64,000 nt of DNA from a virus. Both the position numbers and the translations under genes were made by a program. Where the stretch lies: IMG/VR virus record IMGVR_UViG_3300036766_000670, positions 1 to 64,000 of that record; one strand, written 5' to 3'. The notes under the pieces are model-generated. The model was not told the DNA's origin, made no database searches, and saw only the letters and a list, made by a program, of their open reading frames with translations. Of this stretch, positions 9,240-18,979 are shown one piece after another (positions within the stretch are counted from its first letter, which is position 1; every line of letters starts with the position of its first letter).

Positions 9240-11723
9240 ATGGATAAGGAATATCTACAACATATAGCCGGTTCCCTTTACACTAAGGGTCTCGAAGAAC
9301 AAATTGGCGCAAGAGTGAGATCGGGTATGAAAAATATCGGCGCTATGACTGGCAGTCCAATGGAAAGTAGAGAATATACCTATATTCGTTATTCGTTTGA
9401 AAAATTTCTTAAGGGAATAACGCCTGTATTGGATGATTTTGCAGAGAATGTGGATCGACTTCGAAGATTTAAACCATCTCTTACCCCTAATCAAAATAAA
9501 GTGGTGGATTCCATTGTGGATCTCCACAACGTAATTAAGCCACGATACTATGGAGTTACCGTGAATCCACCAGGAAGAGTACAAGATTATCCTCCGGGAA
9601 GATATCCATATATAAAGGGAATTCAAAAACCATTAACTCCTCTTAAAGGAAAACAGCCTACCAAAATAGCTGAAATAATAGATGAAGGAATGCTTGGTCG
9701 ATCTGTAATTATTAATAAAGCCTGGACAAGCCGAAATGCTGGAAAAATCATTGCTGCTTATATAAAAAACATTTACGATAAACAAGTCGCCTTTTATGCA
9801 GAGGTCAAGAAATTAACTGGAAGAACCCCCAACAGAATTCAAACAGTGTTAAGAGATATAAATCGTAAGTGGTCGAATATTTTTGGAAAAGTAAGTGCGA
9901 CGATAAGTACATGGCAGACACAGGCCGAACCTACTGGAAAAACATTCGTTTCTCCTATAGGGGCAAAACCCGAGGGAAAGCCTATTAGTCCAGATCTAAC
10001 TCTTCCGCCAGAAACACCACCAGAAACATCAACCACTCCACCCGCTGTTGCCGCTGTGCTTACTCCAGATAATGGCAAACCCGCTGCCACGGTTCCTGCT
10101 GTTGGTGATGAAATTCCTCCTCCTGCAAGGGGTGATGATTTTGCTTACATAGTAGAAAATGTAGTAAAAATTATTATAGACACTGTTCGAACGGATACTG
10201 AAAGATCAAAAGATTATTTTGAGGCAGAAAGATTACCGAGAACGTGGGAAGAACCTTCTATACATGCTAAAGAAAGAGAGAAAAAAATTCCTACAACAAT
10301 AAAAACGCCTTCTGGCATTACTATTCCTTCAACTGTTCCTATCACCACAACTGCATCAATAATTCCAGATACCATTAAAGAACAGGAAGATGAACCAGAA
10401 AGTAAACCGGAAAAACCAACTGGAAAATTTTTGTACGATTTCAGAAGTGCTTATAGAAAATCAAGAAACTTTGCAATTGAAATGGGGGATCAAAAATCAA
10501 TAACTCTTTCAAGTGGAAAAACAAAAAATATTCGTGTAATTTGGGTTAATAAAGATCAGAAAAATGAAATTCATGTCAAATATCAAGATGCCGCCGAAGC
10601 TGTTGGAGATCAAAAACATGTGTGGAAAGAAATCATATTATTGAATTTCTACGATTATGAAGCCGATAGCAGAAGTGAAGAATGGCAAAAGGATGAAGGA
10701 AACAGATTATTTACTTATATTCATAATGCAAATCCATATGACAATCCATTAGAAGGAGCGAGTAAAGAACGATTGGCAAGACTTCAAAACAAATCTCTAA
10801 TGGACAAATTCAATCGAGCACTTTATGTAGTGATTGATAGGAAAGCAATGGAATTTAGTGCTATGGGGTTAAATATTGGTATTCTTGATGATGAATTGGC
10901 GACTATTTTCCGGTATGACCGTAGTGGAAAAAAACCTCCAATTAATGTTGAAGAACTTTTGAAGTATATTCGTTCTCCAAATGTAGAAACAAGAACTATG
11001 TGGATTGAAAAATTAAAGGATTTAGGATGGTTTGCTCGTAAAGGTTATCCAATTCCAGATCCTAAACAAGATCCTTCTACCTATGAAGGATTGCCAATTC
11101 CGGGTGAGGAAGAACCAATAACCACTCCCGCTCCAGGAACTACAGCCATTCCCACGGGAACTTTGCCAATACCCGATATCGATAAAATTCCCGCCGCAAT
11201 GGAGGCCAGAAGCACTTTACTTAATAAGGGATGGAAGGGAGTTTTTAATGCTATAGGACAAGCAGCTAAAAATCTTGGAGATCGAGCTAAGACAGCTTCT
11301 CCGGATGAATATGTAAAACTTGCCACCGATATATTAAAAGCTTCCAAAGCCGAAAGAGATCCAAAGTATGTATTGGGAATTGAAAATACTAATAATGCAG
11401 TAATGGCTTTGGAAAAATTGGGGTTTAATAAAGTAGTTGCAATAAAAGCTGTAGCAGAAATAGCTAATACAGAGGGAGAAAATCTTACAGATTCCGAATA
11501 TACTGAAAAGGCTCTTAAATTGCTCAAACCCGACAAAAAAACGCTCCCAAGCACATCAGTAGGGGGTCCACCGCCTACATCACCAGTATCTGGAGAACCG
11601 AGTAAATCCGCTGGAGGAGAACCCTCAAAATCACCCGTATCAAAACCGGCAAGCAAAAAAGCTAAAAAGGGAAAGTTGAAAGAAGGTTTCATTAATCCAT
11701 TTCAAGAAACCAACTTTCTCTAA
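9240..11723 (+). CDS. Large virion-type protein with Pro-rich linkers, unknown
   Basis: This 827-residue protein is not recognised. It has a helical N-terminal region (1-230), a Pro/Thr-rich linker (about 235-300), a central region with an aspartate-rich, mixed alpha/beta part (about 395-610), a second Pro-rich linker (about 625-650), a helical part, and a Lys/Ser/Pro-rich C-terminal tail ending in FINPFQETNFL. The linkers separate globular modules, as in internal head or tail-associated proteins. The late-type octamer in front and its position between sheath and tail tube support a late virion role, but nothing in the sequence fixes the function. Confidence 0.7.
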   Translation: MDKEYLQHIAGSLYTKGLEEQIGARVRSGMKNIGAMTGSPMESREYTYIRYSFEKFLKGITPVLDDFAENVDRLRRFKPSLTPNQNKVVDSIVDLHNVIKPRYYGVTVNPPGRVQDYPPGRYPYIKGIQKPLTPLKGKQPTKIAEIIDEGMLGRSVIINKAWTSRNAGKIIAAYIKNIYDKQVAFYAEVKKLTGRTPNRIQTVLRDINRKWSNIFGKVSATISTWQTQAEPTGKTFVSPIGAKPEGKPISPDLTLPPETPPETSTTPPAVAAVLTPDNGKPAATVPAVGDEIPPPARGDDFAYIVENVVKIIIDTVRTDTERSKDYFEAERLPRTWEEPSIHAKEREKKIPTTIKTPSGITIPSTVPITTTASIIPDTIKEQEDEPESKPEKPTGKFLYDFRSAYRKSRNFAIEMGDQKSITLSSGKTKNIRVIWVNKDQKNEIHVKYQDAAEAVGDQKHVWKEIILLNFYDYEADSRSEEWQKDEGNRLFTYIHNANPYDNPLEGASKERLARLQNKSLMDKFNRALYVVIDRKAMEFSAMGLNIGILDDELATIFRYDRSGKKPPINVEELLKYIRSPNVETRTMWIEKLKDLGWFARKGYPIPDPKQDPSTYEGLPIPGEEEPITTPAPGTTAIPTGTLPIPDIDKIPAAMEARSTLLNKGWKGVFNAIGQAAKNLGDRAKTASPDEYVKLATDILKASKAERDPKYVLGIENTNNAVMALEKLGFNKVVAIKAVAEIANTEGENLTDSEYTEKALKLLKPDKKTLPSTSVGGPPPTSPVSGEPSKSAGGEPSKSPVSKPASKKAKKGKLKEGFINPFQETNFL

Positions 11724-12393: not shown

Positions 12394-15300
12394 ATGAATC
12401 AAGATTTGAAAAAACTCATAAATGAAACCGTAAAAAACTTTTTCGACGAAAATGAAGTGGATGTTTACGGTTCGGGAGAACTTCCTCCGAGCGGAGAAGA
12501 AAAATACGAAAAACAGGAACCCGGAGGTACTATGAGTGCGACAAATTTGACACCGTTGATATACGAAACTAATTTCCGGATTTACAATGAAACGCTTTGT
12601 CCTGATTTATGGGATGCATATGATCATTTAGATGGTCATATAAGAGTAAATCTCTTGCGTATGGCATATGATTTCTATGAAAAGACAGATTTCAAAGCTC
12701 CAATTGTAGATGTCTATTTGATGGGATCTATTGCTAATTATAATTGGACTCCCGAAAGTGATGTTGATATTCATATAATCATTGACCATGATAAACTTCA
12801 AATGCCATCTGATACTATCTTAAGCGCAATCAAAGCTGCATGTTCTTTATGGAATAACGAGCATCATGTAGCGGTTAAGAGGCATAAGGTTGAGATGAAT
12901 ATTCAAAATATGAAAGAAGTTAAACCTCATGTCACCGGCATTTATTCTCTTGTTAAAGATCAATGGGTAAGAAAACCCGTTCTTCAATCTCTTTCTTTTG
13001 ATAAAACCTTTATTCAATCTATGTACAAAGGAATGAAAGAGTATCTCAAGTCTGCTATCAATAGCGGAAATCGACATGCTATGAAGGCGGTAAAAAAATA
13101 TATAGATGCTTTTCGTCAGTATGGACTTGATACCCGTGGTGAATTGAGTGTTGAAAATATCGTATTCAAAATTCTTCGTGCCAAAGGTTTGATTGAAATG
13201 TTGAAAACTGCTATAACAATGACATATGATAAAGAGATGACAGTAAGAGAGGCCGAAAAATTGAATGAAAGTAAAGAACCAGAATCTGCCATTGAAGATT
13301 TGATGGAAGAGCACGGTGTAGTGAGCCGTTGTTTGCTTATTTATGAAGAATTGATTCGTAAATTGGAGACAGAGAAGGAAATGTCTTTTGACATTGTTCA
13401 TGATATAGCCGAAGTAATCCGTCATCACGTAGAAGATCACCACGAAAAAGTAGAGGAGAAGTATGTCTTTGCGCTTTTCAAAGGAAAAGATAAACTGGGA
13501 AAAGTAGTAAAAATTCTTACAGAACAGCACAAAGCGGGCAGGAAATTAACTGGAAAAATACTTAATCTTTCTTCTAAATCGTACTCAAAAGAAACTCAAA
13601 ATCAGTTGTTTCAAGAGTGTAAAAAATTTGTCCATATGTATGGCCCGCATAAAGCATGGGAAGATACGGTAGTATTTCCCGCCGTTCGTAAAGCTTTGAC
13701 GGACAACGAGTTAGAAAAATTCAATGAAAAAATGGAAGAAGCCGAAAAAGAAGGCGATCCGAAAAAATTCATACAGGAAGTTGAAAAAATAGAAAAGAAA
13801 CTCGGTATTTACAAGATATGTTGTTTTACTCCTGAAAAGGACAGAAAGACAATGTTGGAGGTTAGACAACAAGACATTAAATCCCATCTTCCTTCACCAG
13901 AAAACATCAAGCTTATTGATGGTCAAAAGCTGGATCTTAGCCGATTAACCTTAGATCATTTGAAGGCATTACGGGCTAAAGCGGTAAGATTTTGGAAGGC
14001 TGCAAGCAAGAAAAAAGATCATGAAGAAACTCTTTGGGCACTGGCAGAGTTTGAAAGATATAACTTCGAAATAAAAAGGAGAATGAGATACATAAATGCT
14101 CCTCTCATAACCGAAGAATCAAAAAAATTTCCACCTTTTACTCTTGTTTTCGACAGTTCAGATGTAGCAAAAGGTGCTGTAAAGATTATGTTGGGTAATG
14201 AATGGTTTGGTAATATCTATAAACCTCTCGAAGGATGGGGTGAATATACTGGAAAGTGGATTTTCAATGCTGCCAGCAAAGAAGCAATGAAAATGAAGTT
14301 TCCAGCTAAGGGATATAATAGTCCGGGAGAATTGCTTCGAGATTTAAAAAAATGGTATAGTCAACGATTTATAACCGAGAAACAAGAAGTTTTTGACATT
14401 AAAGGTCCGGATGAATTGTCTCCTAGAAATCAAGTTGAGCTTGATCAGTTAGTTCGTAATTCTGAAAACATTATATCCGGTAAAGAGCTTTATTATATTT
14501 ATTTAGTCAATGATCATGTTGCGGGTGCTCTTTATACATCTTATCGTGATCGAGTATATAGTTTTAATGTTGTTGTTAGTAAAGAATATCGTCAGAAAGG
14601 TATTGGAGTAAGAATGATAAGGGATGGATTAGATGAATATTTCAACAATATTCTGGAAACCGATCCGGATGCGAAACTGGAACTTAATATTGTAAATCCT
14701 TCTATAATAGATTATCTTAAACGAATAGGGATGGAAGTGGAAAAGAGTGTTGGAGGACGTGTTATAATGTTTTATTCAAAAGGAAAAGAAAGTTCTATAG
14801 ATGAAAATGGGGGAGGGGGAATAGGATATTTTAGTAAAGAACTTGAAGCAGATATTCAACATCTAATTACAACCAGTGAGGATAGTATAGAGTCTGGTGA
14901 GCCGGTTCTTACTCGTGCTCAAGCAATTCGGTACTTAATGCAGGACATGGATGATCCTGGGCATTATTCACATGAGCATAGAAGGGAACTTCAAAATTTT
15001 GGTGTTAAGATCGGAATTTTTGAACCTTGTACAAGAGAAGAATTGGATAATATTGTAGTTATAGGTGGAAGAGGGCGAAAATATGACTTTAAACGAGGAA
15101 ATTTATACTATAGATTTAATTCTTGGAAACCTTTAATAGGGCACGAAGATCCAGTAGATGAAAATAATGAAGATTTAAAAAGTGATTTTGATTTGGCTGA
15201 ACAAGGAGATACTGTTTCTGTTGTAAGAAGAGCGATAGAGAAGCTGGGAGGAATGGAAAATTTCAAAGCGTGGTTTATGGGATGGATTTCAAAAGAAAAA

Positions 15301-15819
15301 ATTCCATATAGACAAATAGATTCTTCGGGACAATCGCATACTGTAGAATTTTTTGCGAGAAAATATTTAAAAGGCGAGATAGATTTGCGTCGTATTAGTG
15401 AAGGTTATGGAGCGGGTATTCCAGGCACAGATAAGCGTTTAGGTATTCCAGGTGAAAGATGGAGAATTAGAAGCAAAGACGCTCCAAAAACTCCAAAGAT
15501 GCCAAGCGACGAAGAGTTATCAATAACTATAGATCTCGATGAAATTGTTGATAGTACATTGGAATTACTATTCGAATCTCCTAATATGGAAACTCTTAAG
15601 AAAAACAGAAAAACTCTTTCTGATGAAGAAAGAAGAATAGTTATGGATTCGGGAGCGGTATGGCATCATAGTCCAAATGGAAAAGAAACTCCTGGGGTTT
15701 GGAAATCTATAGTCAAAGGAAAAACATGGTACGTTTGTAATACTCACAGAGCTTATCAATGTAAGCCAACTCTAAGGGGAGCCATAAAAGCTTTCGAATT
15801 TATAGAGACAACCTCGTAA
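12394..15819 (+). CDS. Multidomain protein: nucleotidyltransferase + hemerythrin-like HHE + GNAT; possible packaged polyprotein
   Basis: In this 1141-residue protein several domains can be read in order. Residues 1-11 form a short leader ending in I-N-E. Residues ~55-285 are a nucleotidyltransferase-fold domain with G111-S112 and SDVDIHI (D123, D125). Residues ~297-475 match a hemerythrin-like HHE domain: H307, H344/H345, H349/H350, H379, then H414, H419 and E423 in the order of di-iron ligands. Residues ~485-566 are helical; ~575-655 form a small unassigned domain. Residues ~683-796 are a GNAT acetyltransferase with the acetyl-CoA motif VVVSKEYRQKGIG (727-738). The rest is unassigned, ending in a region with C1115 and C1123. 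[I/L]-x-E tripeptides fall at 290-292, 572-574, 660-662, 802-804 and 1001-1003, close to most of these boundaries. Joint role unknown. Confidence 0.8.
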   Translation: MNQDLKKLINETVKNFFDENEVDVYGSGELPPSGEEKYEKQEPGGTMSATNLTPLIYETNFRIYNETLCPDLWDAYDHLDGHIRVNLLRMAYDFYEKTDFKAPIVDVYLMGSIANYNWTPESDVDIHIIIDHDKLQMPSDTILSAIKAACSLWNNEHHVAVKRHKVEMNIQNMKEVKPHVTGIYSLVKDQWVRKPVLQSLSFDKTFIQSMYKGMKEYLKSAINSGNRHAMKAVKKYIDAFRQYGLDTRGELSVENIVFKILRAKGLIEMLKTAITMTYDKEMTVREAEKLNESKEPESAIEDLMEEHGVVSRCLLIYEELIRKLETEKEMSFDIVHDIAEVIRHHVEDHHEKVEEKYVFALFKGKDKLGKVVKILTEQHKAGRKLTGKILNLSSKSYSKETQNQLFQECKKFVHMYGPHKAWEDTVVFPAVRKALTDNELEKFNEKMEEAEKEGDPKKFIQEVEKIEKKLGIYKICCFTPEKDRKTMLEVRQQDIKSHLPSPENIKLIDGQKLDLSRLTLDHLKALRAKAVRFWKAASKKKDHEETLWALAEFERYNFEIKRRMRYINAPLITEESKKFPPFTLVFDSSDVAKGAVKIMLGNEWFGNIYKPLEGWGEYTGKWIFNAASKEAMKMKFPAKGYNSPGELLRDLKKWYSQRFITEKQEVFDIKGPDELSPRNQVELDQLVRNSENIISGKELYYIYLVNDHVAGALYTSYRDRVYSFNVVVSKEYRQKGIGVRMIRDGLDEYFNNILETDPDAKLELNIVNPSIIDYLKRIGMEVEKSVGGRVIMFYSKGKESSIDENGGGGIGYFSKELEADIQHLITTSEDSIESGEPVLTRAQAIRYLMQDMDDPGHYSHEHRRELQNFGVKIGIFEPCTREELDNIVVIGGRGRKYDFKRGNLYYRFNSWKPLIGHEDPVDENNEDLKSDFDLAEQGDTVSVVRRAIEKLGGMENFKAWFMGWISKEKIPYRQIDSSGQSHTVEFFARKYLKGEIDLRRISEGYGAGIPGTDKRLGIPGERWRIRSKDAPKTPKMPSDEELSITIDLDEIVDSTLELLFESPNMETLKKNRKTLSDEERRIVMDSGAVWHHSPNGKETPGVWKSIVKGKTWYVCNTHRAYQCKPTLRGAIKAFEFIETTS

Positions 15820-15832
15820 TCAAAAGAAAAAT

Positions 15833-16612
15833 ATGATTACATTGAAATCATTATTGTGCGAGCAAGTGAAGAAAATATCTCTTCAAAAGGCTGTTGATAA
15901 TAAACTTTTTGGTCCTGTTTATCACGGAACAAACCAAGAAGCCCTTTCTAAAATAGATAAAGAGGGTTTCAAAGTGATTATGGGACTTCATGGTACATCG
16001 GGTATGTCACATGGATATGAATATGAACCATATGGATATTTTACTGATGTTCCTCCCCCAATTCATCATCTTGGGTTCGGCGTGTATTTTACTACTGTCA
16101 AAGCTATTGCTAAAAGATTTGCTGGTGGTACAGCAAAAGGAATGAAAGCATATTTCTTGGATATTCCAAAGAAGGAAACAATAAATTTTGCTTCACCGAG
16201 AAAAATGATGAAATGGTGGATTGAAAATGGATATGATCCGGAATTGGCTAAACGTGGCGAAGGTGGTAGGTACATGGCAACGGCAAAAATGACCGAACAA
16301 TTGAAATCCAAATACGAGGGGGTGTGGTTCAAAGGAAAAGGAATACACAGACTTTTGGATGGTGATCAAGTAGTTGTATTTGATCCTAAAGACATTTATG
16401 AAATAGATTTGTCTTTATCGAAGGAATTTGACCTTGGTGCTAAAGTTAAAGCCAAAATTGACATAAAATATACTGATAAGGAAGGAAATGTATATGGAAG
16501 TGTTGTTCCTATTGGAACAACAGGGATTATAGTTAAAAGATACGATGTCAAAAAAAATGGCGAAAGAATATCCTCTCTATTGGGCAAAAGATGCCGAGCG
16601 ATATGCATTTGA
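15833..16612 (+). CDS. ADP-ribosyltransferase-like protein, C-terminus frameshifted
   Basis: The N-terminal half resembles PARP/ART-type folds: VYHGT at residues 29-33, IDKEGF at 41-46, GFGVYFTTVKAIAKRFA at 81-97 and DGDQVVVFDP at 176-185. T4 packages and injects ADP-ribosyltransferases (Alt), so a virion-delivered enzyme is plausible. The short leader (MITLKSLLCE) resembles those of nearby genes. The frame runs out after an A8 tract at 16550-16557; reading one base on gives a coherent continuation (EYPLYWAKDAERYAF...) to TAA 16677-16679. The intact protein would therefore be about 20 residues longer with a different C-terminus. A clear catalytic glutamate could not be placed, so activity is uncertain. 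Confidence 0.6.
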   Translation: MITLKSLLCEQVKKISLQKAVDNKLFGPVYHGTNQEALSKIDKEGFKVIMGLHGTSGMSHGYEYEPYGYFTDVPPPIHHLGFGVYFTTVKAIAKRFAGGTAKGMKAYFLDIPKKETINFASPRKMMKWWIENGYDPELAKRGEGGRYMATAKMTEQLKSKYEGVWFKGKGIHRLLDGDQVVVFDPKDIYEIDLSLSKEFDLGAKVKAKIDIKYTDKEGNVYGSVVPIGTTGIIVKRYDVKKNGERISSLLGKRCRAICI

Positions 16613-16752: not shown

Positions 16753-17244
16753 ATGGCAGACTTACTAACAAACAACGAGATGTTCTTCACGATTTGGGAA
16801 CCCAAAACGAAGAATCGTTTCCTCATGTATATTGACGGCGTTCCAACGTACCTCATTCGTAAAACCGACCGTCCAAAATGGACCCAAGATCGTCAAACGA
16901 TTGATTATATCAACTTGCAATGGTTCTACAAGGGTAAGACCAAGTGGCAGGAAATTGATATTGAACTTTACGATCCCGTTGTTCCTTCCGCCGCCCAAAC
17001 AGTTTTTGAATGGTTCCGTTTGTCGCATGAATCTGTGACTGGGCGTGATGGATATCAAGATTTCTATAAAAAGGAAGTTACTATTGATATCCTCGGTCCT
17101 GTCGGTGATAAAGTTGAAGAATGGACTCTGAAAGGTGCTTTTCCAACTTCTTTTGATGGTGGGACAATGGAATGGGTCAATGATGCTGAACCAGTACTAG
17201 TTACTCTTAGGCTATCATACGATTATGCGATCCTCCAATATTGA
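16753..17244 (+). CDS. Tail tube protein (T4 gp19 family)
   Basis: This 163-residue protein matches gp19-type tube subunits in length and pattern. Typical features are the N-terminal NRFLMYIDGVPTYLIRKTDRP segment, the ELYDPVVPSAAQTVFEWFR helix-containing middle, VTIDILGPVGDKVEEWTLKGAFP and the final VTLRLSYDYAILQY strand. Hexameric rings of this protein form the inner tube through which DNA passes. Unlike in T4 it is separated from the sheath gene by about 8 kb of other genes. Confidence 0.93.
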   Translation: MADLLTNNEMFFTIWEPKTKNRFLMYIDGVPTYLIRKTDRPKWTQDRQTIDYINLQWFYKGKTKWQEIDIELYDPVVPSAAQTVFEWFRLSHESVTGRDGYQDFYKKEVTIDILGPVGDKVEEWTLKGAFPTSFDGGTMEWVNDAEPVLVTLRLSYDYAILQY

Positions 17245-17931: not shown

Positions 17932-18612
17932 ATGAAGCAAAAACTTTTGGAATATCTCGTTAGGCAATGTGTACGAGAAGTATTGGCCCAAGTGAGAGAG
18001 CAGGATGACGAAACTAAAGGTGCCCCATCACCACCAGCGGCGGGCCTGGGAACTGCCGATACTCCGGCGGTTCCAAAACCGAAAGATACTACGCCAGAAG
18101 AACCATCTGAACCAGAAACTCCACCCACCAGCTTGAAAGGAGCGATATTTGTTAATCCAAGAGATAAATCAAAACTATCTCCAATCGGGCCTCTTCCTTT
18201 TAATATAAGTGATGCCGCTTTGGAAAGAAAACTTTATGATATATCAACAAGTTACATAGGACCGGAGGTAAAAGTTTCTCTTTCTGCATTTCGAATGGTT
18301 AAAGATGCCATTAGAAATCCAGGCTCAACTGTTTACTTATACTTTGGGAAATTTGACCCAGAATCAGAGGAGATATTTTTGATGGCAGATAAAAGTTTGC
18401 AAGCAGCCAAAGATGGTACTGTTCCTCCAGCAGAACTTACTAGAACTCCTGTTTCTACTGCTTCTCCAAGTCAGTTTGATCCAATTACAGCAGAACCGGA
18501 ACAATATGCTCAACAAATGACTAGTGGTGGTATGTCTCCAAGACGTGGGATTGATGAACGAATAGTCAAAGCCATAAAGAAAATAGTCAGAGAAGTATTG
18601 ACACGAAAATAA
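17932..18612 (+). CDS. Hypothetical virion-type protein with terminal R-E-V-L helices
   Basis: This 226-residue protein starts with an amphipathic helix (LEYLVRQCVREVLAQVRE) and ends with a very similar one (ERIVKAIKKIVREVLTRK). Between them are a Pro-rich linker (about 30-65) and a small globular part (about 68-155; KGAIFVNPRDKSK...). The N-terminal helix resembles those of the genes at 12394, 18614 and 44312. It is preceded by a late-type octamer and followed by a related small gene after one base. It may be a packaged or scaffold-associated protein; no known family is recognised. Confidence 0.65.
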   Translation: MKQKLLEYLVRQCVREVLAQVREQDDETKGAPSPPAAGLGTADTPAVPKPKDTTPEEPSEPETPPTSLKGAIFVNPRDKSKLSPIGPLPFNISDAALERKLYDISTSYIGPEVKVSLSAFRMVKDAIRNPGSTVYLYFGKFDPESEEIFLMADKSLQAAKDGTVPPAELTRTPVSTASPSQFDPITAEPEQYAQQMTSGGMSPRRGIDERIVKAIKKIVREVLTRK

Positions 18613-18613
18613 G

Positions 18614-18979
18614 ATGAACCAAAAAAATCTTCAAGAACTCATCCGTTGTATAACTCGGGAAATATTGGAGGAGTATATGGATACTCCTACTAAAATTGGT
18701 AGTATTTCTGATAAAAGCGATGAAGATGATAAGGATATTTCTGCCATGACCGCTGTTGAAAAAGCAAAGAAAAGGCGTGAGGAAGAAAAAGCGAGACAGG
18801 ATCAAATTAGAGGGGGTAAGCTGGAATTGAATGCTACAAAAAAACAAACCGATTATTTTGGGCAGCAACTTAAACAGAATAGATTAAAACAGGCTGCTCA
18901 GAGAAAAGTTCTTCAAAATCTTCAAGCAGATAAAGACATTAGTGTTGGTGGTGCAGGTAGTATTGGTGTCAAAATATAA
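18614..18979 (+). CDS. Small charged protein with shared N-terminal helix
   Basis: This 121-residue protein begins one base after the previous stop. Its N-terminus (LQELIRCITREILEEYMD) matches the R-E-[IV]-L helix of the previous protein and carries an L-E-E tripeptide at 18-20. The rest is highly charged and probably helical (KAKKRREEEKARQDQ) with a Gly-rich end. Function unknown; the shared leader suggests a common destination with the neighbouring proteins. Confidence 0.6.
   Translation: MNQKNLQELIRCITREILEEYMDTPTKIGSISDKSDEDDKDISAMTAVEKAKKRREEEKARQDQIRGGKLELNATKKQTDYFGQQLKQNRLKQAAQRKVLQNLQADKDISVGGAGSIGVKI

Follow-up and report, generated by a model that had tools for sequence, protein, structure and literature searches.

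The window analysed here, a stretch of 64,000 nucleotides, comes from a 78,590-base virus fragment (record G000) whose genes include a T4-type tail module (sheath, tube and hub) together with UvsX and SSB. Flanked by the tail-sheath and tail-tube genes, at 12394..15819 on the plus strand, lies an open reading frame for a protein of 1141 aa (P0001), and its extent is confirmed as an earlier note on this DNA had given it. The nucleotidyltransferase-like (NTase), hemerythrin-like HHE and GNAT domains which that note had recognized were each found by Pfam above the curated cut-off: NTP_transf_2 at residues 99-156, Hemerythrin (PF01814, E=7.5e-8) at 299-430 and GNAT at 678-752. A PDB sequence search gave no match to P0001, and Foldseek found nothing significant for the full-length model; the best (non-significant) neighbours were AadA/ANT-type adenylyltransferases and MNT, which is in keeping with an NTase. 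NTases of this fold transfer nucleoside monophosphates, GNATs are acetyltransferases acting on proteins or small molecules, and the ligands of hemerythrins are O2, NO or iron. By analogy, these three might plausibly be host-directed activities, as was proposed for polyvalent proteins (PMC5512222). An embedded peptidase was also sought as a means of release and was rejected, since no peptidase family matched P0001 or the relatives scanned.

P0001 can be divided into a series of modules, all encoded on the plus strand (a slash marks the predicted cut). It begins with a peptide MNQDLKKLINE/ (residues 1-11, 12394..12426; junction site INE 9-11), which resembles a capsid targeting sequence and may act as one by comparison with T4 IPIII (PMC9026906); its counterparts in relatives read MNQDLQKLISE, MKKTLQQLITE, MDKDLQRVINE and MSKDLKRIITE. 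A spacer with a conserved SGEEKY.KQEPGGTM (residues 12-58, 12427..12567), a region that is a separate upstream ORF in many relatives, runs to the junction IYE/TNFRIYN (56-58). The NTase module (residues 59-286, 12568..13251), in which GS...SDxDxH is invariant, ends at the junction TVRE/ (VRE 284-286), and after a short spacer (residues 287-292, 13252..13269) a second junction site follows, LNE/ (290-292). The HHE module (residues 293-489, 13270..13860) ends at MLE/VRQQDIK (487-489). Next come a small helical module C (residues 490-574, 13861..14115), with the pattern ..DIK..P..LTLDHLKALR..EIKRRMRYINAPLITE/ and the junction site ITE 572-574, and module D (residues 575-662, 14116..14379), which reads ESKKFPPFTLVF...WYSQRFITE/ (ITE 660-662). 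The GNAT acetyltransferase module (residues 663-804, 14380..14805) ends SSIDE/ (IDE 802-804). The unassigned module or modules F (residues 805-1003, 14806..15402) end RRISE/GYGAG (ISE 1001-1003) and contain a further candidate site, VDE 921-923, in coil in the structure model. The GYGAG..GERWRIRSKDAPKTPKM segment (residues 1004-1061, 15403..15576) ends ELLFE/ (LFE 1059-1061), and the chain closes with a C-terminal module SPNMETLKKN.. (residues 1062-1141, 15577..15816), which stands alone in other phages behind T4-like targeting peptides.

Scans with the whole protein or with single domains returned only one near-identical contig, so that profile scans were needed. An NTase profile (A2) reached relatives at 52-72% identity, and more were obtained with profiles of the C-terminal module (A3) and module C (A4), giving about 24 relatives of 365 to 1149 aa, several of them 850-1149 aa. 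The relatives are mosaics, in which shared modules occur in differing order and company. GNAT and ART-PolyVal domains are present among them, the latter as an internal module in L030 and L032. In some relatives the NTase has a gene of its own, whose first residues (MSxFRIYN) fall where P1' lies in the fused forms, and the N-terminal module is then the upstream gene; in about half of the relatives the chain that begins with the NTase carries no targeting peptide at its N-terminus, which is a point against the packaging proposed below. The N-terminal modules of L017, L021, L022, L025-L028, L030, L032, L127 and L134 carry, upstream of the NTase, a treble-clef-like zinc motif (CPHCKKEI..YTEDGG.TWRHxDC) that is absent from P0001. 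In more than 20 contigs the cassette consists of sheath, an 827-aa protein, a deoxyribonucleotidase, the polyprotein, often an ADP-ribosyltransferase, tail tube and hub. The nearest cultured phages by tube protein are Microcystis phage Mel-JY01 (56%) and Flavobacterium phage immuto; in both the sheath gene adjoins the tube gene, with no polyprotein gene between. When the middle and C-terminal modules were compared with phage isolates by tblastn, no match was obtained.

The earlier note had proposed that [I/L]-x-E tripeptides, which correspond to the L/I-x-E specificity of the T4 prohead protease gp21 (PMC9026906), mark the domain boundaries of P0001 as cutting sites. The seven tripeptides that it named (INE 9, LNE 290, LTE 375, ITE 572, ITE 660, IDE 802 and ISE 1001) are all at those positions. 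Its picture of a single tripeptide beyond the boundary ones does not hold: P0001 contains 20 [IL]xE, 13 of them beyond those listed, and this is not above chance (17.1 +/- 3.6 in composition shuffles, p=0.25). By frequency, one of the earlier note's own tests, the idea thus fails within this one protein, and the count in P0001 alone was rejected as evidence. A narrower form, [IL][NTASG]E, occurs 9 times against 4.4 expected (p=0.03), the pattern having been picked afterwards. It is the position of the motif in P0001, not its number, that is far above chance.

Module edges were defined as BLAST breakpoints among 24 relatives, without reference to any motif, and an edge was counted as a match if the Glu of an [ILVM]xE lay within 4 residues of it, with 1000 circular shifts as the null. 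The motif is found at 49.3% of 201 deduplicated edges (52% vs 14.5% before deduplication), as compared with 14.6% +/- 2.4 by circular shift, and none of the 1000 shifts reached the observed value; these 201 edges are not independent, because homologous edges share descent, and they represent about ten different kinds of module edge, including the start and end of the NTase, of module C and of module D, the end of the GNAT and the starts of the GYGAG and C-terminal modules. The strict [IL]xE is also enriched (30% vs 9%). Conversely, the motif is depleted inside the modules (173 vs 222 +/- 12.5 in shuffles; xD and xK not depleted), with a density of 11.8 per 1000 aa there as against 49 at the edges. 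The five sites at 290, 572, 660, 802 and 1001, which had been read as flanking domains, coincide with edges set independently in this way by the mosaic relatives. The first list had missed IYE 56-58, VRE 284-286, MLE 487-489 and LFE 1059-1061, and although its strict motif does occur at edges, the form [ILVM]xE describes the sites better. The reading of putative cut sites at domain boundaries is thus supported by a comparative test made blind to the motif.

The individual junctions illustrate this arrangement. Module C has [ILVM]xE on both sides in nearly all relatives: it begins after [ILVM]xE/VTQKDIK or similar and ends YINxP[VIML]xE/ whatever comes next (GYGAG, SPMMT, DKDYD or ESKKF). Module D is likewise bracketed in L032, L127, L134 and L136, and the GNAT homologue of L127 ends NSVDE/ before unrelated sequence. 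The NTase is preceded in relatives by IDE/ASFRVYN, IDE/SSFQIYN, LEE/SNFRIYN, IAE/DKVQIY or IYE/TNFRIYN, and the C-terminal module by LLFE/SP, LLLE/SP or LLME/AP. In most of the distant phages, too, the C-terminal module stands behind an [ILVM]xE site, after unrelated sequences (DLLLLE/CP, FHVAE/SG, DGLTE/SP) where it is fused, or after an N-terminus of about 10 residues where it stands alone (MSTFREFLIE/ followed by ASEF, MRSFYEWIIEE/, MMDCHLFLIKE/ followed by AT, MRLEQLFE/). These stand-alone N-termini match in length and form the T4 capsid targeting sequence, a 10-residue peptide at which gp21 cleaves behind L/I-x-E (PMC9026906).

A structure model of P0001 was made with AlphaFold2 from an alignment of full-length relatives. 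It can be seen that all 9 internal junction sites lie in coil, as a structure check on the sites would require, while 15 of the 19 other [ILVM]xE do not (Fisher p=1e-4); LTE 375-377 of the HHE domain is in a helix, as are most sites outside the first list. Confidence in this model is good only over the NTase and module C (mean pLDDT 51), and the coil result is therefore taken as supporting evidence. When the C-terminal module was modelled by itself (residue 1062 onward, alignment of 24 sequences), its pLDDT was 92. By this model it is a domain that folds on its own and has its start at the predicted cut; Foldseek gave no significant match for it.

Neither gp21 nor gp23 is found on the 78.6-kb G000 fragment. 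The search for a gp21-like protease that the earlier note had suggested was thus negative on this record, presumably because the record is a fragment. In relative G002 (353,772 bases), which carries the same cassette, both gp21 (PF03420, E=3.7e-23; GELDH and GISSRG motifs kept) and gp23 (E=6e-57) were found, and the sequence QLIEE/SSATG of its gp23 aligns with the maturation site FLTE/AEIGG of T4 gp23. The gp21 gene also occurs in six phages that have the C-terminal module in other contexts.

Taken together, these comparisons suggest that P0001 is probably a packaged 'polyvalent' effector polyprotein that would be cut in trans by a gp21-type prohead protease; packaging, cleavage, injection and the substrates of the enzymes are all inferred here. 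The gene would be a composite of modules, each closed by its own [ILVM]-x-E cutting site. The precursor would be produced late, along with the head and tail proteins, and would enter the prohead, where a protease of the T4 gp21 type would cut after each Glu, and about eight separate proteins from one gene would then reach the host with the DNA: the nucleotidyltransferase, the hemerythrin-like protein, the small helical protein, module D, the acetyltransferase, module F, the GYGAG segment and the 80-aa C-terminal protein. As each module bears its own site, swapping between phages would keep the release mechanism. It also seems somewhat favoured that a set of large T4-like phages shares this arrangement, i.e. 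a reshufflable enzyme cassette loaded as one chain, released during capsid maturation and swapped at the cut sites.

The junctions could instead be relics of fusion, in which once-separate capsid-targeted proteins were joined and the [IL]xE linkers are no longer cut, leaving one multidomain chain. Fusion would leave exactly these tripeptides, and stand-alone relatives of the modules do carry such N-termini. However, divergent relatives have retained the tripeptide, with a freely varying middle residue, although nothing else of the targeting peptide survives in them, and unused relics should decay; furthermore, module ends bear the tripeptide as well, and the interior of modules is depleted in it. 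We regard this explanation as unlikely. More doubtful still is cutting by another protease, of host or phage, or cutting after injection instead of in the prohead, with gp21 uninvolved. For published polyvalent proteins, embedded metallopeptidases are the suggested means of release (PMC5512222), the G000 fragment is without gp21, and the valine common at P3 of these junctions lies outside the published T4 L/I rule. On the other hand, no peptidase domain was found in P0001 or in the scanned relatives, and the motif agrees with the rule for gp21 as well as with the gp23 site in G002, a relative that encodes gp21.

The least probable explanation, and to our mind a very improbable one, is that the edge motif is a structural or recombination feature, such as a helix end or a DNA shuffling site, without proteolysis. 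Caps and linkers do occur at module edges, and E is frequent in linkers. Yet the control motifs (xxE without a hydrophobic residue, [ILVM]xD, xK and xQ) are at chance level at the edges, and other proteins of the same loci gave no clear pattern in the same edge test (20% vs 12%, n=61; 39 of 500 shifts as high, not significant). The junction DNA is diverse, with 45 of 48 9-mers distinct, so that a DNA-level shuffling motif was rejected and selection acts on the protein.

The predicted polyprotein can be compared with several known systems. The polyvalent proteins described from phages and conjugative elements were proposed to be injected and then released as single units (Iyer et al. 2017, PMC5512222). 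Like them, the P0001 family has one long chain with Pol-beta NTase, GNAT and ART-PolyVal domains, shuffled architectures and a neighbourhood of virion genes; hemerythrin is not mentioned in that work, and the NTase is reported there mainly from Firmicute mobile elements. An embedded metallopeptidase is frequent though not obligatory in polyvalent proteins; in contrast, none was found in P0001, whose [ILVM]xE at the edges would suit a prohead protease acting in trans. T4 IPI-III and Alt, the latter an ADP-ribosyltransferase, are cut by gp21 after Glu and injected with the DNA, and they share with P0001 a short N-terminal peptide ending [IL]xE (PMC9026906). However, each of these is one effector whose ends are trimmed, whereas in P0001 up to nine internal junctions would part several enzymes. 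Multiple prohead-protease cuts per chain are known for T4 gp22 and gp67 (core/scaffold) and for the SPN3US gp53 propeptide (PMC9026906, PMC10052503), but the fragments of these are scaffold or propeptide debris that is mostly removed, while those of P0001 would be folded enzymes. DarA, DarB and DdrB of P1 are large defence proteins, packaged via an N-terminal signal, and the capsid protease cuts DarA (PMC9024508, PMC12810830); what has been reported for DarA is one cut, in its N-terminal part, as opposed to the release of several enzymes. Judged from the sequence comparisons, the new element is an apparent release mechanism, in which capsid-protease sites stand at the module edges and no peptidase is embedded.

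Polyproteins that are cleaved into several enzymes are typical of RNA viruses. In tailed phages such chains had been suggested by analogy, with peptidases embedded in them; in the present case the candidate sites are readable from comparative data and assignable to a protease already known, so that a single recombinant protease and a single substrate would be enough to test the idea. If it is true, effector delivery would be coupled to capsid maturation, modules would evolve by swapping at cut sites, and packaged effectors in metagenomic phages might be found via module breaks at [ILVM]xE.

Other genes around the polyprotein may encode packaged proteins as well. Its neighbour at 15833..16612 on the plus strand encodes an ADP-ribosyltransferase (ART-PolyVal) with the conserved start MITLKSLL[CT]E/ (here MITLKSLLCE/; LLTE/, LICE/ and LLCE/ in relatives), and is a second candidate packaged effector, stand-alone in this phage. 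Two small proteins at window positions 17932-18979 start MKQELLEYLVRxCVREVL and MxQxQLQELIRxITRxVLKE, which are amphipathic without a clear cutting motif; as similar N-termini thus occur in neighbours without the tripeptide, the peptide alone is not diagnostic. The 827-aa protein between sheath and polyprotein (window 9240-11723) is fast evolving and has a RuvA_C-like match; some of its relatives start YLxNI..SPYVNE/G, and it is perhaps another packaged protein. In L157 (record G011), a minus-strand ORF of 370 aa beside gp23 contains tandem repeats ...xYSEY[LI]AEN..., which resemble capsid targeting peptides with [IL]AE; it might be a scaffold or core protein cut many times. Finally, two tail-tube-like proteins are encoded in the one record, at window positions 16753-17244 and at record positions 77417-77914.
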